DNA of 60,714 nt, taken from assembly GCA_002690915.1 (NCBI GenBank), contig NZGF01000042.1:1-60714 (forward strand). The letters are read 5' to 3'. Below are positions 9,225 to 40,965 of the stretch, piece by piece. The position numbers and the translations under genes are program-made. A model generated the notes under the pieces. The model was not told where the DNA came from, searched no databases, and worked only from the letters and a program-made list of their open reading frames with translations. Every line of letters begins with the position of its first letter. The first letter of the stretch is position 1. Source of the stretch: Crocinitomicaceae bacterium (GTDB lineage Bacteria; Bacteroidota; Bacteroidia; Flavobacteriales_D; Sanyastnellaceae).

Positions 9225-9346
9225 CAGAACCAGCTGCACGCTTCTAGGACTAGTCGGAAGGTCACGGGAAAACTCGCGACCAACAGCAGCATGAAAAGTG
9301 TCACCTTGAGCAATTCACTATGGATGTCTTGGAATCCAAATGTCAT
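9224..9346 (-). CDS. Small single-span membrane protein, 40 residues (unrecognised)
   Basis: An ATG at 9346 opens a 40-codon frame ending in a TGA that overlaps the cytochrome c start (TGATG). The translation begins MTFGFQDIHSELLK and then has one hydrophobic stretch (about 15-35, TLFMLLLVASFPVTFRLVL) before a short tail ending CSWF. A perfect -7 box (TATCTTTG) lies four bases before the ATG. The start/stop coupling, the promoter position and the membrane-protein character argue that it is translated. I do not recognise a family. It may assist the cytochrome c lipoprotein, or act mainly as a leader peptide coupling ribosomes to it; both are guesses. Confidence 0.6.
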   Translation of the reverse strand: MTFGFQDIHSELLKVTLFMLLLVASFPVTFRLVLEACSWF

Positions 9347-9350
9347 GGCT

Positions 9351-9358
9351 CAAAGATA
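9351..9358 (-). promoter_or_regulatory. -7 box before the 40-codon gene, cytochrome c and hflX
   Basis: TATCTTTG on the minus strand matches TAnnTTTG perfectly and ends only four bases before the ATG at 9346, so the transcript is predicted to start at or very near the start codon. It would drive at least the 40-codon gene, cytochrome c and hflX, and perhaps rbfA and the permease. Confidence 0.55.
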
Positions 9359-9373
9359 GCGCCGCGTGTGAGG

Positions 9374-10729
9374 TTAAACCACGCCTTGGTCAATCATCGC
9401 ATCGGCGACCTTGACAAAGCCGGCGATGTTCGCTCCCTTGACGTAATCCACGTAGCCTGAGGCATTGGCACCGTAGGTAACGCATTGCGTGTGGATGTCC
9501 TTCATGATGTTCAGTAAGCGTTCGTCGACTTCCTTGCGGGTCCAGTTCATGCGGAGGCTGTTTTGGGACATTTCCAGGCCGCTTGTCGCCACCCCGCCGG
9601 CGTTGGATGCCTTGCCAGGAGAGAAGAGCACCTTGGCCGATTGGAAAGCCTCAATGGCTTCTGGTGTCGACGGCATGTTTGCCCCTTCAGCTACGACTTG
9701 GCAGCCGTTGGCGATGAGTTGCTTCGCCTCGGCTTCGTTCAATTCGTTTTGAGTTGCGCATGGGAACGCTGCTTCACAGATTTCGTTCCAAGGGCGCTCA
9801 CCCGCGTGGAAGGTGGCTGTCGCGTGCGCCTCAGCGAATTCTGAAATTCGGCCACGGCGAGCATTCTTGAGGTCTTTAATCCAGTCGAGCTGCTCCGTTG
9901 ATAGCCCATTTGGCTCATGGACGTAACCGGAAGAATCCGACATCGTCACAACCTTTCCACCCATGTGGATGACCTTCTCCGCAGCGAATTGAGCAACATT
10001 ACCGGAACCGGAAATCACCACGCGCTTGCCTTCCAAAGTTTGGCCTTTGGTGTCGAGCATCTCGGCGGCGAAATACACCGTGCCGTACCCGGTCGCCTCT
10101 GGTCGGATCAAGGAGCCGCCCCAGTTGAGGCCTTTACCGGTCAACACCCCAGTAAATTCATTGCGCAAACGCTTGTATTGGCCGAACATGAAGCCTATTT
10201 CCCGGCCGCCCACGCCAATGTCACCCGCAGGGACGTCGGTGTTGGGGCCAATGTGACGGGCTAGCTCAGTCATGAAGCTCTGGCAAAAGCGCATTACTTC
10301 GTTATCCGATTTGCCTTTGGGATTGAAGTTGGATCCGCCTTTTCCGCCGCCCATAGGCAACGTCGTCAAGCTGTTTTTGAATACCTGTTCAAAGCCCAAA
10401 AACTTCAGCACACTCAGGTTGACGGTTGGGTGAAACCGCAAACCGCCCTTGTAAGGTCCAATGGCTGAATTGAATTCGACGCGGTAGCCTTTATTGACAT
10501 GCACTAGTCCTCTATCATCGGTCCAGGGCACACGGAACATGACGGTGCGTTCGGGTTCAACCATCCGTTCCAAGATGCGATGCTCCGTATACTTTGGGTG
10601 GTCAGCAATAAAGGGAATGACGGTCTCTGCAACTTCTTGCACCGCCTGAATGAACTCGGTCTCATTCGGATTTTGAGCAGTCACTTCGGCCATGAAGGCA
10701 AAAATCTGCTCGTGGTGAGGATTGGTCAT
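9374..10729 (-). CDS. gdhA: Glutamate dehydrogenase (NADP type)
   Basis: Interconverts glutamate with 2-oxoglutarate and ammonium. From the ATG at 10729 the protein has 451 residues, close to hexameric bacterial GdhA. The catalytic lysine is Lys130 in PMGGGKGGSNF; the substrate-binding GPYKGGLRFHP is at 91-101 and the dinucleotide fold has GSGNVAQFAAEKV. NADP preference is expected from the family but was not tested by residue analysis. A TTG one codon upstream is a less likely start. The promoter box lies within the end of the preceding SDR gene. Confidence 0.96.
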   Translation of the reverse strand: MTNPHHEQIFAFMAEVTAQNPNETEFIQAVQEVAETVIPFIADHPKYTEHRILERMVEPERTVMFRVPWTDDRGLVHVNKGYRVEFNSAIGPYKGGLRFHPTVNLSVLKFLGFEQVFKNSLTTLPMGGGKGGSNFNPKGKSDNEVMRFCQSFMTELARHIGPNTDVPAGDIGVGGREIGFMFGQYKRLRNEFTGVLTGKGLNWGGSLIRPEATGYGTVYFAAEMLDTKGQTLEGKRVVISGSGNVAQFAAEKVIHMGGKVVTMSDSSGYVHEPNGLSTEQLDWIKDLKNARRGRISEFAEAHATATFHAGERPWNEICEAAFPCATQNELNEAEAKQLIANGCQVVAEGANMPSTPEAIEAFQSAKVLFSPGKASNAGGVATSGLEMSQNSLRMNWTRKEVDERLLNIMKDIHTQCVTYGANASGYVDYVKGANIAGFVKVADAMIDQGVV

Positions 10730-10757
10730 CAACGTACCTATTAACGTTTAATCAAGG

Positions 10758-10765
10758 CAAAGCTA
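10758..10765 (-). promoter_or_regulatory. -7 box of gdhA
   Basis: TAGCTTTG on the minus strand, a perfect TAnnTTTG, lies 28 bases before the gdhA ATG. It falls next to the stop of the SDR gene (10768), so gdhA probably has its own promoter although it follows that gene. Confidence 0.5.
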
Positions 10766-10767
10766 AT

Positions 10768-11571
10768 TCACAGGGAAGAAGTTCTGCCACCGTCGACCGG
10801 TAAATTGATACCAGAAATGTAACTCGCTGAGGGCGAGGCTAAAAACGCAATTGCGCGGCCAACTTCTTCTGGCTCTCCGGTGCGCTTGAGAGGCACAGCC
10901 GCGGACATTTGGGCATGAATCTCGTCCGTTGACGCGTCCATTTTGTCAGCTTTGTTGGCAATTATCTGTTCGAGGCGAGCTGTGTTGGTGGCACCGGGCA
11001 AAACGTTGTTGACGGTGATGCCGTGAACTCCCACCTCGTTGGCCCATGTCTTAGCCCAATTAGCGACGGCTCCTCGTATGGTGTTGCTCACACCCAAGTT
11101 GGTCAAAGGTTGCTTTACGCTGGTGCTAATGACATTGATAATCCGGCCGTATCCCGCGTCTTTCATGCCAGTTAAAACAGCCTGCGCAAGCAGCTGATTG
11201 CAGATTAAATGCTGTTGAAACGTGTTGATGAAGGCGTCGACTTCGGCCTCGACGATGGGGCCGCCTGCCGGTCCACCTGTGTTGTTCACGAGGATGTGGA
11301 CTGGATGTTCGTTGACCACGGCTTCGATTGCCGCCTTTACTTCCTGCGGACGGCTGAAGTCGGCTTGCGCTGTCATGTGGCGTTCCGGTTGGGACAGGGA
11401 GCGACGCGCTTCTTCGAGACGCTCGGCGTTGCGTGCCAAGAGGGTCACCCGCGCTCCGAGCCCAGCTAAGTGTTGGGCTGCCGCCAGTCCGATGCCTTGG
11501 GTGGCTCCGCACACCACCGCGTGCTTTCCTTCCAGCCCCAGCGGCATCCAGGGGTTGTTCGTATCGGTCAT
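10768..11571 (-). CDS. SDR-family oxidoreductase lacking the usual Tyr/Lys pair
   Basis: A 267-residue Rossmann-fold protein of the short-chain dehydrogenase/reductase superfamily. The cofactor site is CGATQGIG (21-28) and NNTGG (96-100); the C-terminal SGINLPVDGG is typical. The catalytic Ser region is present (VISTS, 147-151), but the expected YxxxK is replaced by VSNTIR (161-166), so the proton-relay Tyr and Lys are absent. Close relatives with a similar SN-R motif are known to me as an atypical SDR subgroup; their substrates are unclear. It has a -7 box four bases before its ATG. Function should not be named beyond the fold. Confidence 0.85.
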   Translation of the reverse strand: MTDTNNPWMPLGLEGKHAVVCGATQGIGLAAAQHLAGLGARVTLLARNAERLEEARRSLSQPERHMTAQADFSRPQEVKAAIEAVVNEHPVHILVNNTGGPAGGPIVEAEVDAFINTFQQHLICNQLLAQAVLTGMKDAGYGRIINVISTSVKQPLTNLGVSNTIRGAVANWAKTWANEVGVHGITVNNVLPGATNTARLEQIIANKADKMDASTDEIHAQMSAAVPLKRTGEPEEVGRAIAFLASPSASYISGINLPVDGGRTSSL

Positions 11572-11575
11572 GCGA

Positions 11576-11583
11576 CGAAGGTA
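11576..11583 (-). promoter_or_regulatory. Variant -7 box (TACCTTCG) at the SDR gene
   Basis: Minus-strand TACCTTCG differs from TAnnTTTG at one base and ends four bases before the ATG of the SDR gene, again the geometry of a leaderless transcript. Confidence 0.4.
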
Positions 11584-11631
11584 GCTACTCCCCCGTCAAA
11601 TTGGCTGTATTTTTACGAGCAAACCCCGCCC

Positions 11632-12030
11632 ATGAAACGCATCGAACACATCGGAATCGCCGTCGCTGATTTGCAGGCAGCAGAACAGATTTTCACGGAC
11701 ATTTTGGGTGAATCGCCCTTCAAGCGGGAGCGCGTGGAGTCGGAAGGGGTTGAGGTGAGTTTTTTTCAAACGGGAGAGAGCAAGGTGGAACTGTTGGCCA
11801 GCACTTCGCCAGAGGGCCCAATTGGCCAGCACATTGACAAGCGTGGTGAAGGATTGCATCACTTGGCGTTTTTTGTGGATGACATCCGCTCGGAAATCAA
11901 TCGGCTGACGGGGTTGGGTTACCGGATCATCAGCGGCCCTAAGCAAGGTGCGGACAACAAGGAGATTGCCTTTTTGCATCCGGGTGATACGAACCGGGTC
12001 TTGGTGGAGCTCTGTGCAAACCGCGGATAA
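11632..12030 (+). CDS. mce: Methylmalonyl-CoA epimerase
   Basis: VOC-fold metal enzyme that interconverts the (R) and (S) epimers of methylmalonyl-CoA, needed for propionate or branched-chain residue breakdown via the B12-dependent mutase. The 132-residue protein begins MKRIEHIGIAV, with metal ligand His in HIGIAV, has KVELLA (Glu ligand), GLHHLAFFV (second His) and ends RVLVELC (second Glu), the four-ligand pattern of the family. The ATG at 11632 is chosen by homology; the frame is open further upstream into the divergent SDR gene. A near-consensus -7 box (TATTTTTA, 11608-11615) lies upstream. The mutase itself is outside the window. Confidence 0.94.
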   Translation: MKRIEHIGIAVADLQAAEQIFTDILGESPFKRERVESEGVEVSFFQTGESKVELLASTSPEGPIGQHIDKRGEGLHHLAFFVDDIRSEINRLTGLGYRIISGPKQGADNKEIAFLHPGDTNRVLVELCANRG

Positions 12031-12954
12031 TTACCAACGCTTCTTTTTGGCTCGACGCTTTTGCTTTTTCAATTGCTTTTGCCGGTCTTTCTTCATTTGA
12101 TCGCCAAAGAGGACCTCGCTAGGGCGGTCCTGAGAGGGCGGTTTAGCACAATCTGCGGGGGGCTTAGAGCGCAGGAGGTCCCACTGGAGGGTAAGGTTCC
12201 ACGGCTGGTAGCGGCCCTCGTACCGTTGTACACGGCCGTCCCCTTCCTCTGCCAAGGGAGCCAATTGCAACCCATCGTATGTGGCGTGCACACGGAGGTA
12301 CCGGCCGGAGCGCGTCCGCACCCCGAGTCCTGCCCCTAATTCCAATGCGACGCGGTCCGTTGAGGGAGCTGCTCGGGTGACGAACATGCTGTCTGGACCC
12401 GTCCGGCTGAATGTGCTTCCCCATTCCCGGTCCCACCCGATACCGAGCTGGGCTTCGAAGAAGAAGTCGGTTTTGATTTCGAAGGCCCGCTGGAGTCTGA
12501 AGGTCAATTCCGTGGTTACCAAGGAACGTGCGCTATCGAGCAGGGTGTTGGGCTGCAAAATGCTATCCGAATTGGCGACCAGCCCATCAAATTTGGAAGC
12601 CGAAGCATTGCGGGTTCCCTGCAGTTCAATGAACCATCGATCCCAAATGAGCGGTCTCTGGACGACGCCCCAGTATCCGATTCCCAAACGAAGTGCTTTG
12701 TTTCCGCTATGGCTCCACATTCCAGCGTGCAGGGTGTCAACAATGCCCGATGTGCGAATCGTTTGATAAACTGCTGGAATCGAATCGGGCCGGGCACTTA
12801 AGGCGTGGTAACCAATGGCGAACGTCCAGCCATTGTTACGAAGCATCGGGCTTTCGGCGTCAAACGGGGTGGACTGAGCATGCGTGTTGTTCAGCAAACC
12901 CGCAATGGCCCAAGCGGATACGAAAACCGCCGTCAGGCGCTTTGTGACTCCCAT
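12031..12954 (-). CDS. Predicted outer-membrane beta-barrel protein with polybasic tail
   Basis: I do not recognise a named family. The 307-residue protein starts with a signal peptide (about 1-27, ending THAQS). The rest is rich in alternating aromatic and polar strands (for example GWTFAIGYHAL, ALRLGIGYWG, FFFEAQLGIGW, ALELGAGLGV), suggesting a small barrel of the porin-like OMP class. The final 20 residues are almost entirely Lys, Arg and Gln and end KKKRW, so it lacks the usual terminal aromatic strand. Its start overlaps the end of the kynurenine monooxygenase gene by 22 bases, so the two are probably transcribed together; a functional link is not evident. Confidence 0.7.
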   Translation of the reverse strand: MGVTKRLTAVFVSAWAIAGLLNNTHAQSTPFDAESPMLRNNGWTFAIGYHALSARPDSIPAVYQTIRTSGIVDTLHAGMWSHSGNKALRLGIGYWGVVQRPLIWDRWFIELQGTRNASASKFDGLVANSDSILQPNTLLDSARSLVTTELTFRLQRAFEIKTDFFFEAQLGIGWDREWGSTFSRTGPDSMFVTRAAPSTDRVALELGAGLGVRTRSGRYLRVHATYDGLQLAPLAEEGDGRVQRYEGRYQPWNLTLQWDLLRSKPPADCAKPPSQDRPSEVLFGDQMKKDRQKQLKKQKRRAKKKRW

Positions 12955-14339: not shown

Positions 14340-14346
14340 GCTGTGG

Positions 14347-16615: not shown

Positions 16616-17659
16616 TCAAGCGTAGGCGTGGCTGCCTTCTGAACAATTTTGGCACATGTCAAGGGCTGATCGATTTGAGAAAATTTGAGAACGAAACGCT
16701 TCATATTCTGAACTGAACCAGATTTCCTCGAACGATTGCGTGCTCACTTTTCCCATGGTGTAGTGGGCATCTTTATCAAAGCAGCATGGCACCACTCGTC
16801 CGTCCCACGTCATCACGCAGCCTTGCCACATACGCCAGCACTCGTCAGCTAGCGGATTTCGCAGTACCCATTCCCCGGCGGGTTTGCGGTCGTAGCGCCG
16901 CAACTCAGGGGCTTCAGTCAGCAAGGGATGTCCGTCTTTGGGCTGGTCAATTTGAGCAGTCTTGATGACCAGCTCATCGACGCCAATGCGCTGCGCGTGT
17001 GCTTTGAGGGTTTGAACCTCGTGTTCGTTGGGTCCTACCACCAAAAACTGCCAAACCAGGTGGGGCCCCTTGCCGCCGTTGCTGCGCCGTGCTTCCACCA
17101 TATTGCGCGTTCCTTCTAATACTTTATCCAGTTGCCCACCGACCCGGTAAGAGGCATAAGTGCCCTGGGTCATGCCGTCGATGCTGATGATAAGGCGGCT
17201 CAGTCCGGACTCCACGATTTCCTTGCACCGTTCCGGTCGTAAGAAATGAGCGTTGGTAGAAGTGGAGGTGTACAACCCGTGGGTCGCTCCAATACGCACC
17301 AATTCATTCATTTTTGGGTGGAGGTATGGCTCACCCTGGAAGTACAAATTCAAGTAAACAAGGTGGCGCCCAATCTCATCGAGTACGTGCTTTAGCGTTT
17401 CAACTTCCAGCATGCCTGTTGGTCGGGTGAAGGACCGCAGTCCCGACGGGCATTCAGGGCACCTCAGGTTGCATGAGGTCGTGGGCTCCACACTCAAACT
17501 CAACGGCCAAGAGCCTTGAGGCGTGGACTTGCCGCGCTTGTTCCGGTTGTAAACGCGGTAGGATTTTACGGCATTGGCTAAGCGGTGCCGGTCGAAGGGC
17601 TGTAGTCGTTTCCATCGGTCGCGAAAGGCTGCGCGGGTATTGCTCCATCCAAGGGCCAT
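16616..17659 (-). CDS. Radical SAM/SPASM-domain protein
   Basis: Iron-sulfur enzyme that cleaves S-adenosylmethionine. The 347-residue protein has the CxxxCxxC cluster site CNLRCPEC at 63-70 followed by PSGLRSF, and a C-terminal SPASM-like cysteine set (CWRMWQGC, VVPCCFD, CQNCSEG) that would hold auxiliary Fe-S clusters. Such proteins in Bacteroidota are often found near glycan or peptide-modification genes; no substrate is visible here. Start: an ATG at 17713 would overlap the divergent DUF3109 gene, whereas ATG 17659 lies three bases after a perfect -7 box, so 17659 is preferred. Function is unassigned beyond family. Confidence 0.85.
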   Translation of the reverse strand: MALGWSNTRAAFRDRWKRLQPFDRHRLANAVKSYRVYNRNKRGKSTPQGSWPLSLSVEPTTSCNLRCPECPSGLRSFTRPTGMLEVETLKHVLDEIGRHLVYLNLYFQGEPYLHPKMNELVRIGATHGLYTSTSTNAHFLRPERCKEIVESGLSRLIISIDGMTQGTYASYRVGGQLDKVLEGTRNMVEARRSNGGKGPHLVWQFLVVGPNEHEVQTLKAHAQRIGVDELVIKTAQIDQPKDGHPLLTEAPELRRYDRKPAGEWVLRNPLADECWRMWQGCVMTWDGRVVPCCFDKDAHYTMGKVSTQSFEEIWFSSEYEAFRSQIFSNRSALDMCQNCSEGSHAYA

Positions 17660-17691: not shown

Positions 17692-17699
17692 TAATTTCG
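17692..17699 (+). promoter_or_regulatory. Variant -7 box (TAATTTCG) of the DUF3109 gene
   Basis: TAATTTCG ends four bases before the ATG at 17704. It is back to back with the minus-strand box of the radical SAM gene only 21 bases away, so the two divergent promoters overlap and may compete for RNA polymerase. Confidence 0.4.
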
Positions 17700-17703
17700 T
17701 CCC

Positions 17704-18276
17704 ATGATCGCATTGGACGACACGTTGATTTCAGAGGATGTATTTGACACGCTTTTCGCATGCGATCTAAAAGCCTGTAAAGGGGCCTGTTGCGTTGAGG
17801 GAGAAAGCGGTGCACCGTTGACAGATGAAGAAGTCGAACGGCTGGAAGAGGCGTTTCAAGTGGTCAAGGGCCAATTGCGACCCGAGGCCTTGGCCGTGAT
17901 TGATGAGGTCGGACTTTTTGAAGTGGATCAGGACGGCGAGTACGTTACGCCCATCATCGATGGACGCGAATGTGTGTATGCTACGTTTGACAAGGACGGA
18001 ACGGCCAAGTGCGCATTCGAAGCGGCCTGGCGTGAAGGCAAGTCGGATTGGCCGAAGCCCATTTCGTGCCATTTGTATCCGATTCGTTTAAAAGAATTGC
18101 AGGATTTTACCGCCTTGAATGTCCACCGTTGGCCCATTTGTGATGGTGCACGAACCTGTGGTGCGAAAGCCAACATTACTGTGCTGGACTTTTGTAAGAC
18201 CGCCCTGATTCGCCGGTTCGGTGAAGCTTGGTACGACGAGGCTCAGACTATTTGGAAAGCATGGAAATCCCAATAA
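17704..18276 (+). CDS. DUF3109 family cysteine-rich protein (YkgJ-like)
   Basis: A 190-residue cytosolic protein with a conserved set of cysteines: C20, C25, C29 and C30 near the N-terminus (FACDLKACKGACC), then single cysteines in GRECVY, KCAFE, ISCHLYPIR, WPICDG, RTCGAK and DFCK. This is the pattern of DUF3109/YkgJ-type proteins, which are thought to bind zinc or an iron-sulfur cluster; the function is unknown. It is divergently transcribed from the radical SAM gene, and the two are possibly functionally linked through cluster chemistry (inference only). Its last 16 bases overlap the OmpA-like gene. Confidence 0.85.
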   Translation: MIALDDTLISEDVFDTLFACDLKACKGACCVEGESGAPLTDEEVERLEEAFQVVKGQLRPEALAVIDEVGLFEVDQDGEYVTPIIDGRECVYATFDKDGTAKCAFEAAWREGKSDWPKPISCHLYPIRLKELQDFTALNVHRWPICDGARTCGAKANITVLDFCKTALIRRFGEAWYDEAQTIWKAWKSQ

Positions 18277-19788: not shown

Positions 19789-19796
19789 TACTTTTG
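19789..19796 (+). promoter_or_regulatory. -7 box of panD
   Basis: TACTTTTG, a perfect TAnnTTTG, ends five bases before the panD ATG, predicting a leaderless or nearly leaderless mRNA. No -33 TTTG is recognisable. Confidence 0.5.
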
Positions 19797-19801: not shown

Positions 19802-20155
19802 ATGTTGGTTACCCTAATGCGATCAAAGCTGCACCGATTGACGGTGACGCAAGCGAATTTAAACTACATCGGTTCCATTACCTTGGATCCTGACTTGCTC
19901 GATGCAGCGGGATTGTATGAAGGGGAAAAGGTTCAAATCGTCAACACGAATAATGGCGAACGGTTTGAAACCTACACGATCGTAGGGGAACGCGGGTCTG
20001 GCCAGGTTTGCCTTAATGGCCCCGCAGCGCGCAAAGTGCAAGTGGGCGATATCATCATTGTTATTGCTTACAGCTTGATGACTCCAGAGGAGGCAGCAGC
20101 GCACAAACCAACCTTGGTCTTCCCAGATACACAAACCAATCGACTCATCCCGTAA
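19802..20155 (+). CDS. panD: Aspartate 1-decarboxylase (pyruvoyl enzyme)
   Basis: Makes beta-alanine from aspartate for pantothenate and CoA. The 117-residue proenzyme carries the self-cleavage site YIGSITLD with cleavage expected between Gly24 and Ser25, the Ser becoming the pyruvoyl group. [15 protein letters not shown] (8-22) and [10 protein letters not shown] are family-typical. The neighbouring panC is absent, but the UPF0104 and rfaE2 genes that follow within 10 bp and by overlap suggest a panD-led operon. Confidence 0.97.
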
Positions 20156-26630: not shown

Positions 26631-26674
26631 TCGAGGGCGTAAAGTTAACGGTTGGCCTCCTTGTCCTAACTTGC

Positions 26675-29356
26675 ATGAAGATGGTTTTTCAACGGTTTTT
26701 CGCGCGGTCAATTCTGCTGGTGTTGCCCCTTGTTTTTTGGGTGTCATCAGCCCACGCAACCCACAACCGGGCCGGTGAGATTACCTATACCCACGTGGAG
26801 GGATTGACCTACGAAATCCTCATCACAACCTACACCAAAACCAGTGCGCCGGCCGATCGACCCTGGCTGTATTTGTATTGGGGGGATGAGGTAGATGAGC
26901 CCATCGATAGCCTCGAGCGGGAAATCGTCCAATTGCTGCCCGATGACATCCAAATCAATCGCTACCGCGGAAACCACACGTACGGAGGACCGGGAATTTT
27001 TGAAATCCGTGTGGAGGACCCCAACCGGAACCAAGGCGTGCTCAATATCCCGGGTTCTGTCGACGTCCCGTTCTCCATTAGTACGTTATTGATCATCGAT
27101 CCCCTCGCTGGGCACAACAACTCGGTGCAGCTTTTGAATCCCGCGCAACAAAACGCTTGCCTCTTTCAGCAATGGATTCACAATCCTGGCGCCCATGACC
27201 CCGATGGTGACTTGCTTACGTACGACCTCGTCCCCTGCCGGGGATTCGATTCGGACATCATTCCAAATTATGTACCCCCAGATGAGGTGAGTCCTGAAGA
27301 CGACAGTTTCACCATTGATGCTGATAATGGCGACGTCGTCTGGGAAGTTCCGCAGATTGCGGGCATTTATAATTTGGCCCTGCGCATTCAAGAATGGAGG
27401 GATGTGGAGGGGGTGCTCATCAAGGTAGGCGAGGTGGTGCGTGACATGCAAATCACCGTGGAGTCGTGTACGAATCAGCCGCCCGAAATTGCCAACATCC
27501 CCGATACCTGTGTGGTGGCCGGGAGCTTCCTTTCTTTCTTGGTGAATGCTTCTGATCCGGATGGAGACAGCGTGGACTTGGATGCGATAGGAGGCCCACT
27601 TTCTGAGGTTGAGAACCCGGCTAATTTTTCCGATCTCGGTGCCGGAATCGGCCAGTTTGTATGGTCTCCTGAGTGCACAGAGGTTCGTGAAGCACCCTAC
27701 CAAGTTGTGGTGCGAGCGGAAGATAATAGTGGACAAGTGCAATTGATGGATTTGGAGACCTTTCAAATTCGTGTGGTGGCACCCGCCGCTGAAATGACAG
27801 CGGCAGAACCCGTTGGAAATGCGATTCTCTTGGAATGGAATGCGCACGAATGTACCGGAGAGTTGCCCGGCTGGAAGTCCTCCACAGGCCACTACCACGT
27901 CTACCGCAGGGTAGATTCTCTGGACTGGACGCCCAATGCGTGTGAGACGGGCATCCCCGACTCTTATGGCTTCACCTTCCTCGGGACGGTCGAGGGGTTG
28001 GACAACACAGTGTACATCGACGAGGACTTGCTCTCGTTTGGTGCCACATACTGTTACCGTGTGGTTACGGAGTGGCCGGGCAGCGGTGAGTCAATGGCGA
28101 GCAACGAGGTCTGCGCTACGATTCGGAAGGATGTCCCCGTCATCACCCGGGCATCCATCGAAGCGACGGATGAGGTGAACGGAGCTGTGGATCTGCGGTG
28201 GTCGCCACCCACCGATGCAGACACCGTGGTCTTTCCCGGTCCTTACCGGTACCGGGTTTTAGGCAGTGCAGTGGGCTCGGTATCCATGGAGGTATTGCAC
28301 GAGACGGCTCCGGGTCCGTACCTCAACGCACCGGACACAGCGTGGCTCCTCGAAGGCGTGGATACCCAAAACCTAAGCTGGGTCTTCAGGGTGGAATGCG
28401 TAAGTTCTGCTGGGGAAATGGGTGTGTCTGCCCCTGCTGAGACCCCTTGGTTGGCGCTGGAGCCCAACGACAACGCCTTGACGTTGACCGTATCCGGGGC
28501 CTTTCCTTGGTGGGTCGATGCCTACGATATCTACCGAGAAGGCGATGCAGGCTTTGACTGGCTTGCGACCACGAGCGAGCCGACCTTTACCGATACGGGG
28601 CTGGTTAACAATCGCGCGTACTGCTACCGCGTCGAAACGGTTGGGCATTACGACGGGGATGCTCTGCCCGGACCGCTCTTGAATTGGAGCCAGCGAGCCT
28701 GCGCGAAGCCGTTCGATTACACCCCGCCATGCCCGCCTGACTTTGCGATGGAACCGGATTGCGTCGAGGAGCAAAACAATCTGGCATGGAGCAACATCGC
28801 CGGGTGTGCTGACGATGTTATGGCGTACCAATTGTACTGGGCTCCAACGCTCATTGACACGTTGCGGCCGGTCGAAATTTTCAGCGATCCCACACAATTG
28901 ACCTACACCTGGAACGAGGAAGGTGAGCGTGGGACCATCGCTGGCTGTTTTGCCGTGACCGCGTTGGATAGCTTGCAATCCGGACCGGACGGAGCGCTGC
29001 GTCGAAACGAAAGCGCACTCAGCGACACGCTGTGTGCGGACAATTGTCCGTTTTACTTTTTGCCCAATGTGTTCACGCCCAACCTCGACCAGGTGAACGA
29101 TACCTTCCAGGCTTTTCCATGGAAATTCATCGACTCCTTGGAAGTGCGGATCTTCAACCGCCTGGGCGAGGAGGTTTACCAGACGAACGATCCTGACGTC
29201 AACTGGAACGGCATGCACAAAGAAGGACGGATGTGCGCTGACGGCGTTTACTACTACACCGCTCGGGTGTGGACGATTCGGCTCGTGGGCTTGGTAGAAG
29301 AGCGGTTCAGTGGTGAACTTCACTTAATGGGAGGTGTTGGACCACTAAGCGAATAA
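26675..29356 (+). CDS. Large secreted protein with gliding-motility/T9SS type B C-terminal domain
   Basis: An 893-residue exported protein. A signal peptide (about 1-28, ending SSAHA) is followed by an N-terminal region starting THNRAGEITY that is common in this Bacteroidota group. Then come Ig/cadherin-like repeats (HDPDGDLLTYDLVPC, SDPDGDSVDLDAIGG) and several fibronectin-III-like segments (AILLEWNAHECTG, AVDLRWSPP). The last 90 or so residues form the CHU_C-type domain (FLPNVFTPNLDQVNDTF, VRIFNRLGEEVYQ, WNGMHKEGRMCADGVYYY), a type IX secretion sorting signal for surface attachment. ATG 26675 gives a clean signal peptide. The ligand or adhesive role is unknown. It sits between pdxA and ribE. 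Confidence 0.88.
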   Translation: MKMVFQRFFARSILLVLPLVFWVSSAHATHNRAGEITYTHVEGLTYEILITTYTKTSAPADRPWLYLYWGDEVDEPIDSLEREIVQLLPDDIQINRYRGNHTYGGPGIFEIRVEDPNRNQGVLNIPGSVDVPFSISTLLIIDPLAGHNNSVQLLNPAQQNACLFQQWIHNPGAHDPDGDLLTYDLVPCRGFDSDIIPNYVPPDEVSPEDDSFTIDADNGDVVWEVPQIAGIYNLALRIQEWRDVEGVLIKVGEVVRDMQITVESCTNQPPEIANIPDTCVVAGSFLSFLVNASDPDGDSVDLDAIGGPLSEVENPANFSDLGAGIGQFVWSPECTEVREAPYQVVVRAEDNSGQVQLMDLETFQIRVVAPAAEMTAAEPVGNAILLEWNAHECTGELPGWKSSTGHYHVYRRVDSLDWTPNACETGIPDSYGFTFLGTVEGLDNTVYIDEDLLSFGATYCYRVVTEWPGSGESMASNEVCATIRKDVPVITRASIEATDEVNGAVDLRWSPPTDADTVVFPGPYRYRVLGSAVGSVSMEVLHETAPGPYLNAPDTAWLLEGVDTQNLSWVFRVECVSSAGEMGVSAPAETPWLALEPNDNALTLTVSGAFPWWVDAYDIYREGDAGFDWLATTSEPTFTDTGLVNNRAYCYRVETVGHYDGDALPGPLLNWSQRACAKPFDYTPPCPPDFAMEPDCVEEQNNLAWSNIAGCADDVMAYQLYWAPTLIDTLRPVEIFSDPTQLTYTWNEEGERGTIAGCFAVTALDSLQSGPDGALRRNESALSDTLCADNCPFYFLPNVFTPNLDQVNDTFQAFPWKFIDSLEVRIFNRLGEEVYQTNDPDVNWNGMHKEGRMCADGVYYYTARVWTIRLVGLVEERFSGELHLMGGVGPLSE

Positions 29357-30722: not shown

Positions 30723-33200
30723 TCAAATACCTACAGAGAATCCAATTCGAATGCCCCGGCTGGCTGGATCCGACAAGCGCAAATCGGAGCGCCACACCCC
30801 ATCAACGCGCAAAACGCCAAAGATGTTTTCCAAGCCGACGCTGTACTCGGTGTAGGTTCCGTTCAGTCCTGTGGTTTCTTCTGGCAGTTCCAGCAGGGCT
30901 TCGTGCCGCACGTCCCAGCTGCCTGCGATGCTTTTTACGCCCACGACCTCGCGCAGTTCGAGTCGGCGAATCAAGGGAAGGTGGTTGAATAGGATGCCTT
31001 CTCCGTGCCACTCGACATTGGCACTGACCCATTGGTCTGTTACCTGCTCGAACAGGCGAAGCATGTTGAAAGCTTCTTCCGTCATGAAAAATGTTCCGCT
31101 TGCCGGCACTACCTCCATCAAGGGGAAAGGTGCCGTTCCGAAATATTTTCCTGCGATCGCGAGCCATTCCAATTGCCCCCACCAACCAAGGCGGATTTCA
31201 TCGTAAGCTTCCAACGTGCACCGGGTGTAGTTGTATTGAGATCCCATGACGTTGGGCATGGCCCAGGTAATGGTAGCGTCTAGCACCGGCCACTCTGTCC
31301 CCAAGCTGCGCCGAACGAATTCCCCCCCTACGAATTGTTCTCCTTTGGCGAACCGAAGGGCACCTGTTGCTTCGGTGGTGATCAAGCGTTCGATGGGCAA
31401 TCCCGTCTCAGGGTTGAGAAAATTCCATTCGCCACGCATGCCGACTCGGCGGTGCCGCCATTCGAAAAACGCTGTGAATCCGGTGCCGAATTCGTGCGTA
31501 ATTGACGCCTCGCTCCTGAAGACTTCCGACAGCAGGTTGACGCTATCTGTGCGCAGCGCTGAGGTAAACGCCTCGCCTTGCTCCAACAAGCCTACCATAC
31601 CGAATTGCTCGATGTCGTGTTTGATTTCAAAAAAAGCCTCTGTTCTCGGCGTCTTACGGAAGATCAGATCGGACGCTACGCCGGCTTTCCACCGTTGGTC
31701 GTAGGTGCCGTAGGCCAAGAAAACCGAAGGCATGAACCGGGTGCTAAAGGCATTGGAGGTTTGAAGGTCCAAACGGAAGCGGTTGCCTTCAGTGGGGTTT
31801 TGGGTGTACGCGGACCACCATGCACCTATTTCAAGAGGCCCCGCCAGCACAAACCCGGAGCCAAGGAAGTACCCCGCGCCCTTGACGAACCGCCACTGCG
31901 GCAGGGACATGACGGAGTCGGTCATCTCGAAAATACCGGATTCGATATCCAACAGTGGCACCGTCCGCATGCGGTCCCACTCGGCATCGGTTCGCCGGAT
32001 GGCGAGCGAATCAAAGGTCATATTGCGGCCCTTAGCGAGTGCTGTATCCTGAACGGCTTCAGACCAACGTTGGTCCGAGATGGAGCTCTTACGACGGAGG
32101 TAGGCCCCAAATGTTCGATTGGCGATGCTCATATCGAACACCACCGAATCGGCGTCGAGCATCCATCGGTTTTCGCCGTTGTCTCCAGGAATGAGCCGGT
32201 ACGATTGGGACCACTCCATGCCCCGAACAAAATTGATGTTCGCGGACGGGCTCAATTGGGCATCCACACGCGCCAAAGCCAGGGTTAATGTATCCACCCA
32301 GAGTTCTCCTTCGAAAGTCATTTCGCCCTTGCGTCGAGGTAGAAACGCCATGTGAAAAGTCCTGCGGTCGTTGAAATCCAAGGTATCGAGGATGTAGAAC
32401 CGGTAATGAGCATTGGCCCGGTCGTGCAGCGGTGAGGTGAACATCCGGTCGAGCATCAACAATTGGTTGTCGTAAAGGTTGATTTCCGGAAATCGGCCAT
32501 TCATGGCAGCGGCAGACAGATCCCCGCCTGAACCGAAATCACCACTGACCTGGGAAGCGAGCACATGGGTGGTTTTCCGCTTGGGACGCGATTGCCATTC
32601 CTCTTCCGCGATAATTTCCCCTAACATCACGGGCAATGCGCTTCGGTTATCGTTGTGGTGCATGTAATCAAACACGAATCCAAACGCTCCCCAGTACCAC
32701 GCATCTGCTTGGTCCTCTTCAATGTCATTAAAGTCGACCTCAATGCGGCTGTGGATGCGCTGCCAACCGGCGGGCAATGTGGCGGGGTTATTGGAAGGTT
32801 TTGCGTCGATGATGCGCTGTATGAGGGGCTTTGCCGGATTTTCTTCTTTTCTATTGGGTCGTACTTCCGCTGCCCCAAGGTCAAAAGCTCTCGGTTCCAA
32901 GCTGACGTTAATTTGCTGGGAAATACCGCGGACGACAGTAAAGCTTTGGGAAGCAAATCCCAAAAACGTCACCGAGAGGCGTCCCGGACGATCTATTGTT
33001 GTAAGGGTGTACCGGCCTTGGACGTCCGTCATGGTTCCGTTTTCACCCGATCCAAGGACCACGCTGACATACGGCAGCGCTTGGCCAGTTACGGCGTCGA
33101 ACACCCTGCCTTTGACCTCTGTAATCTGCGCAGAACTCACGACCACGGATAACGCCACAGCAGCAAAAGCCAATGCCAAGCGGGGAGCGGGGTTATGCAT
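30723..33200 (-). CDS. DUF5686 outer-membrane protein with CarboxypepD-reg-like domain
   Basis: An 825-residue envelope protein. After a signal peptide (about 1-27) comes a carboxypeptidase-regulatory-like beta-sandwich (about 28-110: VKGRVFDAVTGQALPYVSV, GTMTDVQGRYTL), the plug-adjacent domain also found in TonB-dependent receptors. The remainder is the DUF5686 region, beginning ENPAKPLIQRIIDAKPSNNP, and is predicted to be a large beta-barrel ending RIGFSVGI. No TonB box is evident. Function is unknown; homologues are widespread in Bacteroidota. ATG 33200 is chosen because it gives a clean signal peptide; it overlaps the tatC stop by eight bases. Confidence 0.86.
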   Translation of the reverse strand: MHNPAPRLALAFAAVALSVVVSSAQITEVKGRVFDAVTGQALPYVSVVLGSGENGTMTDVQGRYTLTTIDRPGRLSVTFLGFASQSFTVVRGISQQINVSLEPRAFDLGAAEVRPNRKEENPAKPLIQRIIDAKPSNNPATLPAGWQRIHSRIEVDFNDIEEDQADAWYWGAFGFVFDYMHHNDNRSALPVMLGEIIAEEEWQSRPKRKTTHVLASQVSGDFGSGGDLSAAAMNGRFPEINLYDNQLLMLDRMFTSPLHDRANAHYRFYILDTLDFNDRRTFHMAFLPRRKGEMTFEGELWVDTLTLALARVDAQLSPSANINFVRGMEWSQSYRLIPGDNGENRWMLDADSVVFDMSIANRTFGAYLRRKSSISDQRWSEAVQDTALAKGRNMTFDSLAIRRTDAEWDRMRTVPLLDIESGIFEMTDSVMSLPQWRFVKGAGYFLGSGFVLAGPLEIGAWWSAYTQNPTEGNRFRLDLQTSNAFSTRFMPSVFLAYGTYDQRWKAGVASDLIFRKTPRTEAFFEIKHDIEQFGMVGLLEQGEAFTSALRTDSVNLLSEVFRSEASITHEFGTGFTAFFEWRHRRVGMRGEWNFLNPETGLPIERLITTEATGALRFAKGEQFVGGEFVRRSLGTEWPVLDATITWAMPNVMGSQYNYTRCTLEAYDEIRLGWWGQLEWLAIAGKYFGTAPFPLMEVVPASGTFFMTEEAFNMLRLFEQVTDQWVSANVEWHGEGILFNHLPLIRRLELREVVGVKSIAGSWDVRHEALLELPEETTGLNGTYTEYSVGLENIFGVLRVDGVWRSDLRLSDPASRGIRIGFSVGI

Positions 33201-34020
33201 TTTCCCTTTTACGGTAGACACGCTTCGCGATGAGAATGCTGAGCTCATACAGCACGAGCACGGGCAGGGAAACCAACACTTGACTGGTCACGTCCGGTGG
33301 GGTGATCAAGGCGGACAAAATGAGAATGGCGACCAGCGCATGCCGTCGGTAAGTTTTCAAGAGGCTCGGCGTGATGAGTCCTGCTCGGCTCAGAAAGTAG
33401 ACCACCACCGGCAGTTGAAATACCAGTCCGGAGGCTAGTGTGATCGAGGCGACCGTCTTCATGTAGGACATCACGGAAATCCTCGACTGGACATCCCCTA
33501 GCTCGTAGTTCCCGAGGAACTGCAGCGACAGCGGTGCGATCACGTAGTAGCCGAAGCCCACGCCCAAAAAGAACAGGATGGATGAACTAAAACCAATTCC
33601 CCGTGCTGATTGCCTCTCACGCTCTTTTAGTGCAGGCCTAATGAACAACCAGCCTTGCCAAAACACCAAGGGGAAGGCTGCGATGAATCCGGCGATGGCA
33701 GACACCAAAATATGCGTTGTAAAATTTCCGAGCATGGTGGTGTTGATCAGCTCGTAATTGATGCTGTCAACGCACAAGGCTCCTCCAGCTCCTATCCACT
33801 CGGAGAGTTGGCACCAAGCGCGAAAAGTGATAAAATCCACGTGACGCGGCCCAAACAACACGACGTCGAACAACCAGTCTTTGGCCAAGAACAAGCCAAT
33901 GCCCCCGATGACGATAAAAAACGCCGCATAGAAGAGGCGCTTTCGCAATTCTTCCAGGTGGTCCAGGAAGCCCATTTCAATATCCTGTGTGGGCTGGTCG
34001 TCTGGTTGATCCAATGGCAT
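33193..34020 (-). CDS. tatC: Sec-independent protein translocase subunit TatC
   Basis: Core receptor of the twin-arginine translocase, which exports folded proteins. The 275-residue protein has about six membrane spans. It begins with a short acidic extension (MPLDQPDDQPTQDIE) before the standard MGFLDHLEELRKRLF start; the periplasmic insert after the first span (VDFITFRAWCQLSEWIG) is typical for Bacteroidota. FQLPVVVYFLSRAGLITP is the conserved later motif. TatA is not adjacent. A -7 box sits four bases before the ATG. Confidence 0.95.
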   Translation of the reverse strand: MPLDQPDDQPTQDIEMGFLDHLEELRKRLFYAAFFIVIGGIGLFLAKDWLFDVVLFGPRHVDFITFRAWCQLSEWIGAGGALCVDSINYELINTTMLGNFTTHILVSAIAGFIAAFPLVFWQGWLFIRPALKERERQSARGIGFSSSILFFLGVGFGYYVIAPLSLQFLGNYELGDVQSRISVMSYMKTVASITLASGLVFQLPVVVYFLSRAGLITPSLLKTYRRHALVAILILSALITPPDVTSQVLVSLPVLVLYELSILIAKRVYRKRENA

Positions 34021-34986: not shown

Positions 34987-35078
34987 AACATGCCAGAGTG
35001 AAAAAACCGTGAATTTCAGCTTCTCAATCGTGGGTTTCACGTCGAGTGAGCGACAAAACACCTTATCTTTAGTTAGCG

Positions 35079-35086: not shown

Positions 35087-35126
35087 CGCTTTTCGCCCGG
35101 CTTGACCGGAACCAAACGTCTGATTG

Positions 35127-37325: not shown

Positions 37326-37330
37326 GTCGA

Positions 37331-37717
37331 CTAAGGATACAGGTCGTTCCAAGAACGAATAATTAAGCGCGCTGATGCCAAGAGCATGAATATGCCGAAT
37401 ACCAATCTGACCACGGAAGGATTGATGCGAAGGGACCACTTGCTCCCTAGCCAAGCGCCCAGAACAAACGTCATGGCCAAAACTCCAGCATACTCCAATT
37501 GAATCTGGCCTGCTTTGTAATAACTAATAACTGCGAGGATACCAATGGGCGGGATCATCATCGCTAAAGAAGTGCCCTGAGCCATGTGTTGATTCAGTCC
37601 CAACCCGAGAACCAGAGCAGGAACGATAATCATTCCGCCTCCAATGCCAACGAATCCACTGGCAATGCCAGCAAGGAGTCCGATGCAGAGCAATAGAAAG
37701 AGTGTTTGGATATCCAT
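37331..37717 (-). CDS. Short TauE/SafE-type membrane protein (half-size)
   Basis: A 128-residue protein with about four membrane spans. The N-terminus FLLLCIGLLAGIASGFVGIGGGMIIVPAL carries the glycine-rich motif of the TauE/SafE (DUF81) permease family, usually about 250 residues with two such halves. Only the first half is present and the gene is compact, with its own start and stop, so it is either a true half-size form that dimerises or a remnant. Substrate unknown; the family is associated with sulfite or organosulfonate export. It lies 3 bp after the large propeller/barrel gene. Confidence 0.82.
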   Translation of the reverse strand: MDIQTLFLLLCIGLLAGIASGFVGIGGGMIIVPALVLGLGLNQHMAQGTSLAMMIPPIGILAVISYYKAGQIQLEYAGVLAMTFVLGAWLGSKWSLRINPSVVRLVFGIFMLLASARLIIRSWNDLYP

Positions 37718-37720
37718 AGC

Positions 37721-40700
37721 TTAGAAATCGAGTTGAAGAGAAAGGTTGAAAATACGGTCTTGCCAGCGCCCGTCATCTACGCCCCAGCTCCAATCGGCGC
37801 GCAGCCAATACCCCAACACCTTGCCCCGAAATCCGAAGCCCGTGCCCCAGATAACAGGCTCACGGTTGTTATCGATGGTGACTGTGATGGGGTTTTGTGT
37901 CACGGTCACTTGATTGAACGTATTGGCATTGTCATAAGGGTGTTTGCCATTCCAGGCCGAACCCACGTCAAAGAATCCCACGCATTGGAGGGTTCGCAGT
38001 AATTCGGTGTCAACCGCTCGTGAACTGAAAGTGCTCCAAATCGGAATGCGCAATTCGCTGTTGAAGAGTGCCATGTGTGAGCCGTTTCGTGCATTGGCGT
38101 TGAATCCTCGGAGCGGTGCAAGGCGAGTTTGGTACGCATAATTGATGCTTGGATCAATGGGAGATTCTGTATTGGCAATCAGCGACAACGTATTGTCGAC
38201 ACCCCCTACCATGTGCAGCAGGCGTTGTTTGCCGATGGACCAATCAGCTGCCAGTCGGTTAGCCCAAATCACATTCCGCCACAGCGGCTTGTACGTACGA
38301 ACGTCGAATCCAACGGTTCCAAAGGTGGACTCCGGTGCATTGGGATTGATGAAATACTCCGCCCAAATTCGGTAGCGCATTCCTTCGGGGATGTTGATCA
38401 TCCGTTCTCTGGTGTTGTCGAATACGTAGGCAACCAAGGCACCTGCTTGCCCTGCGAATTGGGTGGATTTGGTCAGGTTGAACGCATCCGTCGACAAGGG
38501 GGTGATGCGGTCGAGCCGGCAGACGCCTTGCAGGCGAATGCTGCGTACTTCATCCAAGGCGTATTTCCATTGACGGCGGAGTATATGAATGTGGGTGCGC
38601 ACGAAGGTTTGGTTGTTTTCAATGCCTTGTGTCACCCCTTGACGTTCAATCATCCAGGTCCTGTCCCACCTTCCTGTCAGATCAGAATAAGCAAACAAAT
38701 ACCTGCTATTTTCGAGAGATCCGGCCAATCGAAAACCTGCCGTGAACCTCCGGTTTTCGAATAAATCGGCGATGGAGATTTGGGATAATCCACCCAGGCC
38801 GGGTTGCACAGCTATGTTGCCACTGTACGCTTGATAAAAGGTAGACCCAAAGGAGTTGTCCAATTGACCCGTGATGGATTCGATGGCGTAATTCAGGCGA
38901 TAGTTTCGGGGTTTGGGCAATTTGAAAGGCACCCACTCTTCAAGTCTGCCTTCTGCATTTTCATTTATTACTTGGGGTTCTGTTTCTTCATTGTCGGAGT
39001 TTGACCACGGCCCAAAGGTGTAATTGCGAAAATCGGCTTCGGTCGGCCCCGGTGTCCAGTTCCAGTCCAATTGAACGTCTGAGGCCTCAACTGCATCGGC
39101 ACTGCCCGGAGCGATGTCTTGCCAATCTTCTTTGTTTTCGGTCGTTTCCACCCAGAATGGATGCCCGGTCAGCAGGTGAGAAAATCCGGAGGCACTGCGC
39201 GAGGGGATCCATTGGAAATGCGAAGCGGGCTGTTCCAATTTTGCAGCCAGTCTTTGCTGCGTGAACCATCGGTAATGGATGGTGGTGTCGATGTACGCCA
39301 CAGCGCTATCGCGCCATGAGGTCCACCGCTCTTGAGAGCCGTCTTCCAGTTCCACTAAGAATGTCACGTGTTCGTCGGATTGCAGCTGAGGGAAGCGTTC
39401 ATCCCGCTGTGGTGTTTTAACCCAATGGATGAGCTGAGGCTCGTCATCTGTCCATTGCAACGCAAACAAGTCTTGGTTGGGGTTAACCGGTTCACCAAAT
39501 ACGAATTCTCTCTCTAGATTGGCGGTAGGGCGATTGGAAGCGAACCAGATGGTGCTGCCGTCCTCACTGAAAATAGGGTTTAAGTCGTCGTACGGATCGC
39601 TCCACAAGGCGGTGTGGTTGTTCCCTAGAATTTGATACCGATACAAGTCTGACTGCCCGTCTTTGACTCCGCTCCAAACCATGGATAAGCCATCCGGCGC
39701 GTAGGACATTGATAAGATTTTGTCAATCCGAAAGACCTCCTTTTCGACCGATTCAAACGATGTCAGGTCCACAGAATAAATCAGGTTGCGCGAGCCCTGT
39801 TCGAGTGCATAGGTGAGAACATTACCATTCGGATGCCAAGCCATTGCGGGTAGCGTGCGGTCTTGGATGCGGTCAATTTTGTGGCCGTGGCGTCCTACAC
39901 GCCGCACGTCGCCAGTGCTGCGGTTTCCCACCCAGACCTCCAATTGCCCTCTTTCATCACGTGCCCATGCGTACTGGTTGCCATCTGGATGCACCGTCAG
40001 TGCTCGGAATTCAACATTGGGTTGGACTGGGAGGTGAAGTAATCCGGTGTTATGCCGAGCCTTTCGCAGGTCCCTTCGCGTGGCCAAGGCGGGGAACTGA
40101 TCATCGGGTCCGGCGGTATCCATGTGGTAACGGCTCGCCTCCTCCAACAGCAAAGTGAGATTCATGCCGGTAGCGTATTGAAGGCCTTTTTCGAGGTTGC
40201 TCGAAACCCTCACCATGTAAAGGGTATTTGATATTACGGCTTCACCAAACACATCGGCGATGTACTTCCACACTCCGTGGCCGACCCAACGGGCTTTTTC
40301 TCCGGTCGTCCTGTGCGCATTGGTGATTTCCCCGCAGCGAGCGGCGTCCCAAACGTGCAGTGCCGCTTCGGCCGACCAAGGTTGGGCGACATAGCTGTGC
40401 AGGCCTGCTTTGAACCAATCCGGAAAAGAGATGCCTGTTGTCGATGAGCGGAGCGCTTCTTGCCAATTGCCACCGTATAGTATTTGGTTGAAAAGCAGGC
40501 TGGACAAGCTTCTTTTGATGTCCTCCTCCGTATGTTTCCAGATGCCGTCGGCGTACACGAATAGCTTGGAGCCGACAAGGGTGGCGGTTCCGCCTATGTT
40601 TTGGGCATTCAGCTGGCCGCTGCCGATATTCGATTGACGGAATTCAGCTTGTTTGTTGTACACGAGAATCTGGACGGTTCCCTCAATGCTGCGATCGTAA

Positions 40701-40951
40701 AGCCCTTCAACCGCTTCAATCCAACCTTTGATTTCTGAAGTGATGCGGTTAGCGTATGCCTTTCCCCCCTGGTAGTAGTAAACCTCCGCCCGTGAGGTAG
40801 GAAGATACTGCCATTCGAAGGTTCGGTGCTGAACACGGTTCTTGCCAAACTCCATGTTAGACCCGTCATAGAACTGGCCCGACGCCATGCTAGTCGCACA
40901 GGCCATGAGTGCGCTAGAAATGAACCGTATGAAATAGCTTTGCCGCAGCAT
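37721..40951 (-). CDS. Large exported beta-propeller protein with C-terminal Omp85-like barrel
   Basis: A 1076-residue outer-membrane protein. Signal peptide 1 to about 25 (ending SMASGQ). A peptidase-MA-like region (about 30-290) follows, then TolB/PD40 propeller repeats (about 310-530: VHPDGNQYAWARDERGQ, SEDGSTIWFASNRP), a linker, and a C-terminal beta-barrel resembling the Omp85/bacterial surface antigen family (RGFNANARNGSHMALFNSEL, WSWGVDDGRWQDRIFNLSLQLDF) with the terminal Phe expected of Bam-inserted proteins. Peptidase activity is doubtful: no HExxH is seen. Function unknown; proteins of this build are typical of Bacteroidota. ATG 40951 lies six bases after a variant -7 box. Confidence 0.82.
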   Translation of the reverse strand: MLRQSYFIRFISSALMACATSMASGQFYDGSNMEFGKNRVQHRTFEWQYLPTSRAEVYYYQGGKAYANRITSEIKGWIEAVEGLYDRSIEGTVQILVYNKQAEFRQSNIGSGQLNAQNIGGTATLVGSKLFVYADGIWKHTEEDIKRSLSSLLFNQILYGGNWQEALRSSTTGISFPDWFKAGLHSYVAQPWSAEAALHVWDAARCGEITNAHRTTGEKARWVGHGVWKYIADVFGEAVISNTLYMVRVSSNLEKGLQYATGMNLTLLLEEASRYHMDTAGPDDQFPALATRRDLRKARHNTGLLHLPVQPNVEFRALTVHPDGNQYAWARDERGQLEVWVGNRSTGDVRRVGRHGHKIDRIQDRTLPAMAWHPNGNVLTYALEQGSRNLIYSVDLTSFESVEKEVFRIDKILSMSYAPDGLSMVWSGVKDGQSDLYRYQILGNNHTALWSDPYDDLNPIFSEDGSTIWFASNRPTANLEREFVFGEPVNPNQDLFALQWTDDEPQLIHWVKTPQRDERFPQLQSDEHVTFLVELEDGSQERWTSWRDSAVAYIDTTIHYRWFTQQRLAAKLEQPASHFQWIPSRSASGFSHLLTGHPFWVETTENKEDWQDIAPGSADAVEASDVQLDWNWTPGPTEADFRNYTFGPWSNSDNEETEPQVINENAEGRLEEWVPFKLPKPRNYRLNYAIESITGQLDNSFGSTFYQAYSGNIAVQPGLGGLSQISIADLFENRRFTAGFRLAGSLENSRYLFAYSDLTGRWDRTWMIERQGVTQGIENNQTFVRTHIHILRRQWKYALDEVRSIRLQGVCRLDRITPLSTDAFNLTKSTQFAGQAGALVAYVFDNTRERMINIPEGMRYRIWAEYFINPNAPESTFGTVGFDVRTYKPLWRNVIWANRLAADWSIGKQRLLHMVGGVDNTLSLIANTESPIDPSINYAYQTRLAPLRGFNANARNGSHMALFNSELRIPIWSTFSSRAVDTELLRTLQCVGFFDVGSAWNGKHPYDNANTFNQVTVTQNPITVTIDNNREPVIWGTGFGFRGKVLGYWLRADWSWGVDDGRWQDRIFNLSLQLDF

Positions 40952-40957
40952 TCCATT

Positions 40958-40965
40958 CGAAGTTA
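40958..40965 (-). promoter_or_regulatory. Variant -7 box (TAACTTCG) of the propeller/barrel gene
   Basis: TAACTTCG (minus strand) ends six bases before the ATG at 40951 within the 21-bp gap to the divergent MBL-fold gene. One mismatch to TAnnTTTG. Confidence 0.35.

Follow-up and report, generated by a model that had tools for sequence, protein, structure and literature searches.

Seven genes in the window studied here, the 60,714-nucleotide contig NZGF01000042.1 (C43 in our numbering) of a Crocinitomicaceae bacterium (assembly GCA_002690915.1), have a −7 promoter box joined almost directly to the start codon. They are very probably transcribed into mRNAs that are leaderless or carry a leader of one or two nucleotides, a reading to which we assign a probability of about 0.88 on the basis of sequence comparisons. 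The leaderless interpretation, which the initial annotation had proposed, gained computational support: the boxes peak at 4 nt before the start, which is a published distance between this box and the transcription start site, the start codons behind them are in frame, favour ATG and are conserved, and the arrangement recurs in short divergent gaps. In the following, the strict box is TAnnTT(T/C)G and the distance d is the number of nucleotides between box end and start codon.

All seven boxes were found where the initial annotation had placed them, 3–6 nt before the starts. On the minus strand the box TATCTTTG (9358-9351) ends 4 nt before the ATG at 9346 of a 40-codon open reading frame (ORF). 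The box TACCTTCG (11583-11576, minus strand) ends 4 nt before the ATG at 11571 of a short-chain dehydrogenase/reductase (SDR) gene (10768..11571, minus strand; Pfam PF13561 and PF00106), and TATATTTG (17670-17663, minus strand) ends 3 nt before the ATG at 17659 of a radical SAM/SPASM gene (16616..17659, minus strand; PF04055 and PF13186). Its divergent partner, the DUF3109 gene (17704..18276, plus strand; PF11307), has the box TAATTTCG (17692-17699, plus strand) 4 nt before the ATG at 17704. For panD, encoding aspartate decarboxylase (19802..20155, plus strand; PF02261), the box TACTTTTG (19789-19796, plus strand) ends 5 nt before the ATG at 19802. The box TAATTTTG (34032-34025, minus strand) ends 4 nt before the ATG at 34020 of tatC (33193..34020, minus strand; PF00902). 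Finally, TAACTTCG (40965-40958, minus strand) ends 6 nt before the ATG at 40951 of a gene for a PD40 propeller protein of 1076 aa (37721..40951, minus strand; PF07676); the ATG at 40951 is the in-frame one, and an ATG at 40956 belongs to another frame. The SDR, radical SAM, DUF3109 and tatC genes are predicted to be leaderless, panD to be leaderless or to have a 1-nt leader, and the propeller gene to have a leader of 1-2 nt.

Both layouts coexist in the window, as had also been proposed: the strict box lies 14-92 nt before other genes as well, among them gdhA (28 nt). Two further candidate leaderless boxes were noticed, TAACTTGC (26667-26674, plus strand) 6 nt before an ATG at 26681 and TAAATTTG (42738-42745, minus strand) 4 nt before a GTG at 42733, the latter start being uncertain.

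In Flavobacterium johnsoniae this box (−12 to −5) and the mapped transcription start are 4 or 5 nt apart (PMC6847099), and for F. psychrophilum the TAnnTTTG box is likewise given at −12 to −5 (PMC9723704). With a gap of 4 nt between box and ATG, the first transcribed base would consequently be the A of AUG. The TAnnTTTG box of σABfr promoters was recovered in our sample; the TTCG form made up 23% of 53 leadered boxes. The seven boxes would act as −7 elements of promoters for the primary sigma factor, presumably of the σABfr type. At a spacing of 4 nt transcription would begin exactly with the start codon, and at 3, 5 or 6 nt it would be displaced by no more than one or two bases. The resulting mRNAs, with 5' ends predicted from the box position, would carry no leader or one of 1-2 nt. 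Their translation would start at a 5'-terminal or near-terminal AUG without upstream contacts. By the general understanding of leaderless initiation and the introduction of PMC10783764, the ribosome probably takes such mRNAs via initiator tRNA and IF2 (initiation factor 2), as 30S subunit or 70S particle. Leaderless promoters would then be a regular, conserved architecture of this lineage, alongside ordinary leadered promoters.

The window belongs to a draft genome of 2.39 Mb that is 84.9% complete. From this genome 20 stretches (386 kb) were sampled in addition to the window, which gave 447 kb or about 19% of the genome. Genes were called not with a published gene finder but with an in-house script that uses composition only (a hexamer score), without any term for promoters or ribosome-binding sites. 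It called 363 genes, of which 330 were kept; genes with a score below 15, or with less than 150 nt upstream or 60 nt downstream to the end of the stretch, were dropped. Counting the box-to-start distances against shuffled sequence, the check proposed in the initial annotation, revealed a sharp excess at 4 nt. The box was found at d=4 in 17 genes, at d=5 in four, at d=6 in three and at d=7 in four, in none at d=0-3 and in one at d=8-12; a second, broad group of distances began at about 19 nt. The reversed box did not occur at d=0-12 before any of the 330 genes. Dinucleotide shuffles of the 60 upstream bases (300 rounds) yielded a mean of 0.17 boxes at d=4 and a maximum of 3, and over the distances 0-52 there were 70 boxes compared to 10.1 in the shuffles. 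An unbiased search for the commonest gapped words at −12 to −5 returned TAnnTTTG (10/330) and TAnnTTCG (7/330). Weaker boxes escape the strict consensus in all of these counts.

The whole genome was also searched directly. Our main control was the same box with a spacer of 10-11 nt before ATG: box-N4/5-ATG occurred 166 times and box-N10/11-ATG 58 times. The reversed pattern was not used as the main control because reversal alters the codon context; with it, the counts were 118 versus 38 for box-N4-ATG and 243 versus 139 for box-N3-6-ATG. Thus, a fixed distance between box and start, a feature of leaderless bacterial genes, is present above chance genome-wide. An expectant reader could have picked chance matches, given that the box is short and AT-rich and that chance combinations of box, spacer and ATG are common, as the 58 hits at N10-11 illustrate. 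Such an origin has a negligible probability in view of the excess at d=4, the spacer control and the conservation described below, and it is already refuted by the genome-wide count; position control, reversed box, shuffles and spacer control together rule it out.

The ATG behind the box proved to be the start of the gene itself. When a box-N4-ATG lay within 60 nt of a called start, this ATG was in frame in 54 of 54 cases (11 genomes examined, ten of which had any). Here an expectation of one in three would be too lenient, because each called start supplies an in-frame start codon. Leaderless bacterial genes prefer ATG over GTG, and the counts for the genus (22 genomes) showed this preference: at N4-5 versus N10-11 there were 3682 versus 1163 ATG, with GTG at only 845 versus 660. 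The gene caller assigned GTG starts to 3 of the 17 genes at d=4 and to 4 of the 28 at d=3-7; since the genome-wide GTG excess is small, some of these GTG starts at a box may be misread. A start that follows the box and is in frame and conserved, as found here, is another feature of leaderless genes.

These data also bear on the explanation that the true starts lie further downstream and that the genes have ordinary short leaders with misread starts. It draws on the radical SAM gene, where the spacing of 3 nt combined with the published 4-5 nt would place the transcription start inside the AUG, and on the gene caller, which agreed with the initial annotation on five of the seven starts and chose another in-frame start for panD and the radical SAM gene. 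The 54 in-frame cases speak against it. Moreover, position 1 of the Pfam profile aligns to residue 1 in both panD and DUF3109, which supports the starts of the initial annotation, as does the conservation of the radical SAM ATG in the relatives L081-L087; generally, the ATG after the box is conserved and the next codons vary. We therefore consider misread starts very unlikely.

Conservation was followed gene by gene in relatives, among them named loci centred on DUF3109. As the latter are syntenic and not independent, they serve for conservation and not for rates. The nearest named genomes by DUF3109 (L081-L087) are metagenome assemblies, most of them labelled Flavobacteriales, with 80-95% protein identity. 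Loci in which the script left the start uncovered or misplaced it are omitted from the tallies (L277 for the propeller gene; L100, L133 and L146 for SDR), and TAnnTTGC was counted by eye. From the comparison, each gene tends to hold its own box spacing, be it leaderless or leadered. The SDR gene had the strict box at 4 nt in all eight nearest relatives (L081-L088), and in the more distant loci L089-L101 TAnnTTGC stood at 4 nt in 10 of 11 (the start of L100 being misplaced). For the radical SAM gene the 3-nt spacing recurred in 7/7 loci (L081-L087) and was 5 nt in L088. The panD box was found at 4-5 nt in 18 of the 19 loci in which the start is covered, down to 70% identity. DUF3109 had the strict box 4-5 nt before ATG or GTG in 14 of 22 near loci (L081-L101 and L146), with GTG as start codon in the group of 60-64% identity. 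Among 58 more distant DUF3109 loci five had the strict box at 4-5 nt (L106, L108, L109, L113 and L138), including one Bacteroidales genome, and the Mesonia loci had it at 19 nt. Of 20 genus loci that include the start of the propeller gene, 19 retained the 6-nt spacing, as did G023 of another genus. In 20 genus relatives the tatC box was at 4 nt in 12 and at 6 nt in one, and TATTTTTG stands at 4 nt in two loci from a different family within the order. The leadered box of gdhA was located at 26-36 nt in the relatives' loci where it was found. The gdhA leader (window about 10730-10765, minus strand) also contains an ACGT...ACGT element (e.g., ACGTTAATAGGTACGTTG and ACGTCAATCGAAACGTCA) that is kept in L081-L101, even where protein identity falls to about 73%; it is possibly an operator or an RNA element.

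In L089-L101 the motif TAnnTTGC takes the place of TAnnTTYG about 4 nt upstream of the SDR, radical SAM and DUF3109 genes. In F. psychrophilum TAnnTTGY, likewise mapped to −12 to −5, is described as a promoter class of its own (PMC9723704). TAnnTTGC matches this class, and a switch of promoter class with the spacing retained is possible in these loci; the position of the box seems to be kept while the class changes. This observation is relevant to the explanation that the start-adjacent motif is no promoter but acts in the mRNA as a signal for translation, which would account for the fixed distance to the start codon in a phylum without Shine-Dalgarno (SD) signals. However, in 53 cases the same box lies further upstream of a gene, at 13-100 nt, and it matches the σABfr box; moreover, the motif that relatives swap in at the same place belongs to a published promoter class (PMC9723704). 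A translation signal in the mRNA is thus highly improbable.

Short gaps between divergent genes provided a further line of evidence. A side was scored when TAnnTTYG or TAnnTTGC lay 3-7 nt before an in-frame ATG or GTG no more than 75 nt from the called start. In the sample of the own genome, 16 divergent pairs had a gap of less than 80 nt; the box was present on at least one side in 12 of them and on both sides in three. The same 16 pairs had no reversed box (0/16), no box at 8-12 nt (0/16) and one at 13-17 nt (1/16). The radical SAM and DUF3109 genes form one such pair, with start codons 44 nt apart. In G033, a member of the same family but of another genus, 6 of 12 divergent pairs had a box at 3-7 nt on either side and 4 of 12 on both sides (gaps of 31-52 nt), whereas G001, which shares the genus of the window, had such a box in just two of its 7 short pairs. 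Such gaps leave other promoters little room. This restricts the most serious alternative, in which the boxes are real but minor and protein is made mainly from leadered mRNAs that stem from upstream promoters or read-through. For that alternative we have tatC, whose box is missing from 7 of the 20 genus relatives; the sequence upstream of tatC resembles the end of a co-directional gene, so that tatC may be co-transcribed. Yet for a box that merely adds transcripts neither the constant spacing to the start nor the marked preference for ATG would be expected, and we regard a minor role of the boxes as unlikely.

Besides the tatC losses and the radical SAM spacing, several observations weigh against leaderless transcription of the seven genes. 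The upstream profile contained no convincing −33 TTTG element; a TTG starting 16 nt ahead of the box was seen in 7 of 82 cases, versus 0-3 at each other offset, and the −33 element is described as weak in PMC6847099, too. An A-rich element near −11/−10 of leadered genes does not help here, as the box covers the same positions in the leaderless class and the two classes are not comparable. Additional upstream promoters may exist for these genes. Eight of the 22 near DUF3109 loci have no strict box; in roughly its position they carry variant boxes, for example TAAATTGC, TAAATTGG or TAAATTCA. None of the seven more distant relatives L292-L298 has the propeller box at 6 nt; one of them (L297) has TAAATTGC 4 nt before an ATG. 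The divergent pairs of G033 also had boxes at 13-17 nt (5/12) and at 8-12 nt (2/12), which makes them weaker evidence than those of the own genome. In G044 and G025 the gene-based peak was broad or weak, and Saprospiraceae-type DUF3109-centred loci had 0 of 56 boxes at 3-7 nt.

One of the seven genes was not what the initial annotation had taken it for. The 40-codon ORF (9224..9346, minus strand) has gdhA and a cytochrome c gene as its neighbours and is what an in-frame internal deletion has left of a gene for a membrane protein of about 148 aa. In the six relatives read (L081-L086) an intact ORF of about 148 aa, resembling a membrane protein, follows gdhA, and its end residues match those of the window ORF. 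The remnant has kept the first and the last residues and lost the middle in frame; its product matched no Pfam family. In 6/6 of these relatives TATCTTTG is found 4 nt before the ATG of the long ORF. Apparently, the promoter of the remnant is the old leaderless one.

We then compared how common the architecture is within the phylum; genomes other than our own were sampled mostly at contig beginnings. Strict boxes within 60 nt of the start lay at 4-7 nt in 28 of 72 cases in the own genome and in 19 of 35 in G033. At 4-5 nt the corresponding fractions were 21/72 for the own genome, 4/24 for G001, 3/28 for G025, 4/31 for G044, 10/39 for G172, 5/19 for G129, 1/14 for G199, 4/14 for G193 and 0/1 for G258. 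In the DUF3109-centred loci, which are a biased set, boxes at 3-7 nt among those within 100 nt amounted to 35/68 in the nearest group, 23/50 in the next, 7/47 in Flavobacteriaceae-type and 7/72 in Bacteroidales-type loci.

A second measure was the ratio of box-ATG counts at N4-5 to those at N10-11. This tally comprised all 73 rows of the own class and every row of f35 (9) and f40 (6), together with f34 (7) and f28 (6), which were chosen by eye; 195 of 296 genome rows were left out. The pooled ratio was 3.17 for the genus (22 genomes, range 2.41-5.13), 2.32 for other genera of the family (15 genomes, 1.52-9.26) and 1.46 for other families of the order (23 genomes). Three members of the family from other genera, G033, G029 and G023, had an even larger excess, with 176 versus 19, 237 versus 31 and 188 versus 32. 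Of the 73 genomes in the class sample, eight reached a ratio of at least 2, and the largest family, f17, pooled at 1.20. Family f35 of another class had 2.84 (9 genomes), f40 1.45 (6), f28 1.21 (6) and f34 1.01 (7). These ratios depend on GC content, with little background in genomes of high GC. Values of 1.0-1.2 seem to be no more than background, because f28 pools at 1.21 although the gene-based sample of its member G258 (one box in 94 genes) contains no such gene. Expressed as absolute excess per Mb, the genus had about 52, the rest of the family 42, the rest of the order 19 and f17 11, and the seven f34 genomes stayed under 1. The architecture is, as judged from these counts, strong in this genus and family and patchy elsewhere in the phylum, and not unique to the lineage.

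The 3' end of the 16S rRNA was inspected as well. In L331 (G014, same genus) it reads GGCTGGATTATCTCCTTT, in which the anti-SD core CCUCC has become UCUCC; the pattern used for the 16S end matched in 1 of the 22 genus genomes searched. L319 (G052) has TATCTCC, too.

Translation start without SD signals in Bacteroidota is an open question, and leaderless mRNAs are too rare in the model species to answer it. A lineage with many promoters fused to start codons offers natural, conserved sets of leaderless and leadered genes and makes the question testable. In these genomes the promoter box could also be used for the annotation of start codons. Our results suggest that findings made in Flavobacterium and Bacteroides cannot be extended to the whole phylum. 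One might go further and propose that leaderless initiation is a main route for genes with their own promoter in this family (in G033, roughly every second strict-box promoter), selected for compact divergent pairs and possibly accompanied by a weakened 16S anti-SD (one genus member), so that the lineage would be shifting from SD-less leadered to leaderless initiation. We put this forward only tentatively and think it may well be wrong as a whole.

Leaderless mRNAs are already known in bacteria and, at a low level, in Bacteroidota. The initial annotation had called leaderless translation little described in this phylum, which holds in so far as published maps show leaderless or very short leaders to be rare (3.7-5.5%), but they are not absent. 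In F. psychrophilum 5.5% of 890 mapped mRNAs are given as leaderless (PMC9723704), and in Bacteroides thetaiotaomicron about 3.7% of 5' untranslated regions are shorter than 10 nt (PMC7366714). Both resemble the lineage studied here in phylum, in the TAnnTTTG box and in mRNAs that begin with the start codon or close to it, as predicted here; they differ from it in scale, with 28/72 boxes at 4-7 nt here and 19/35 in G033, numbers that come from DNA comparisons and are not strictly comparable with RNA maps. Among the matches listed in a search of open-access titles and abstract openings, which did not extend to preprints and subscription papers, no Bacteroidota lineage rich in leaderless promoters was described. 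In a survey (PMC3160421) only one of 37 Bacteroidetes/Chlorobi genomes turned out to have leaderless genes; it searched for Pribnow-like signals alone and names as a limit that genes with other promoters would be missed. Like the leaderless genes of Actinobacteria and Deinococcus-Thermus in that survey, many genes here have a promoter box a short distance before the start, but those phyla are described with Pribnow-type boxes, unlike the lineage here. FCB genomes are characterized in the StartLink paper by AT-rich non-SD sites (PMC9581028). The Kozak-like, SD-less leadered initiation of F. johnsoniae (PMC6847099) shares with our lineage the SD-less phylum, the same box and coexisting leadered genes. 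It differs in its leaders, which are mostly long: where a probable promoter was assigned, 87% of predicted transcripts are reported to have leaders of more than 10 nt. Compared with these systems, what appears to be new is the scale of start-codon-fused promoters in this lineage.

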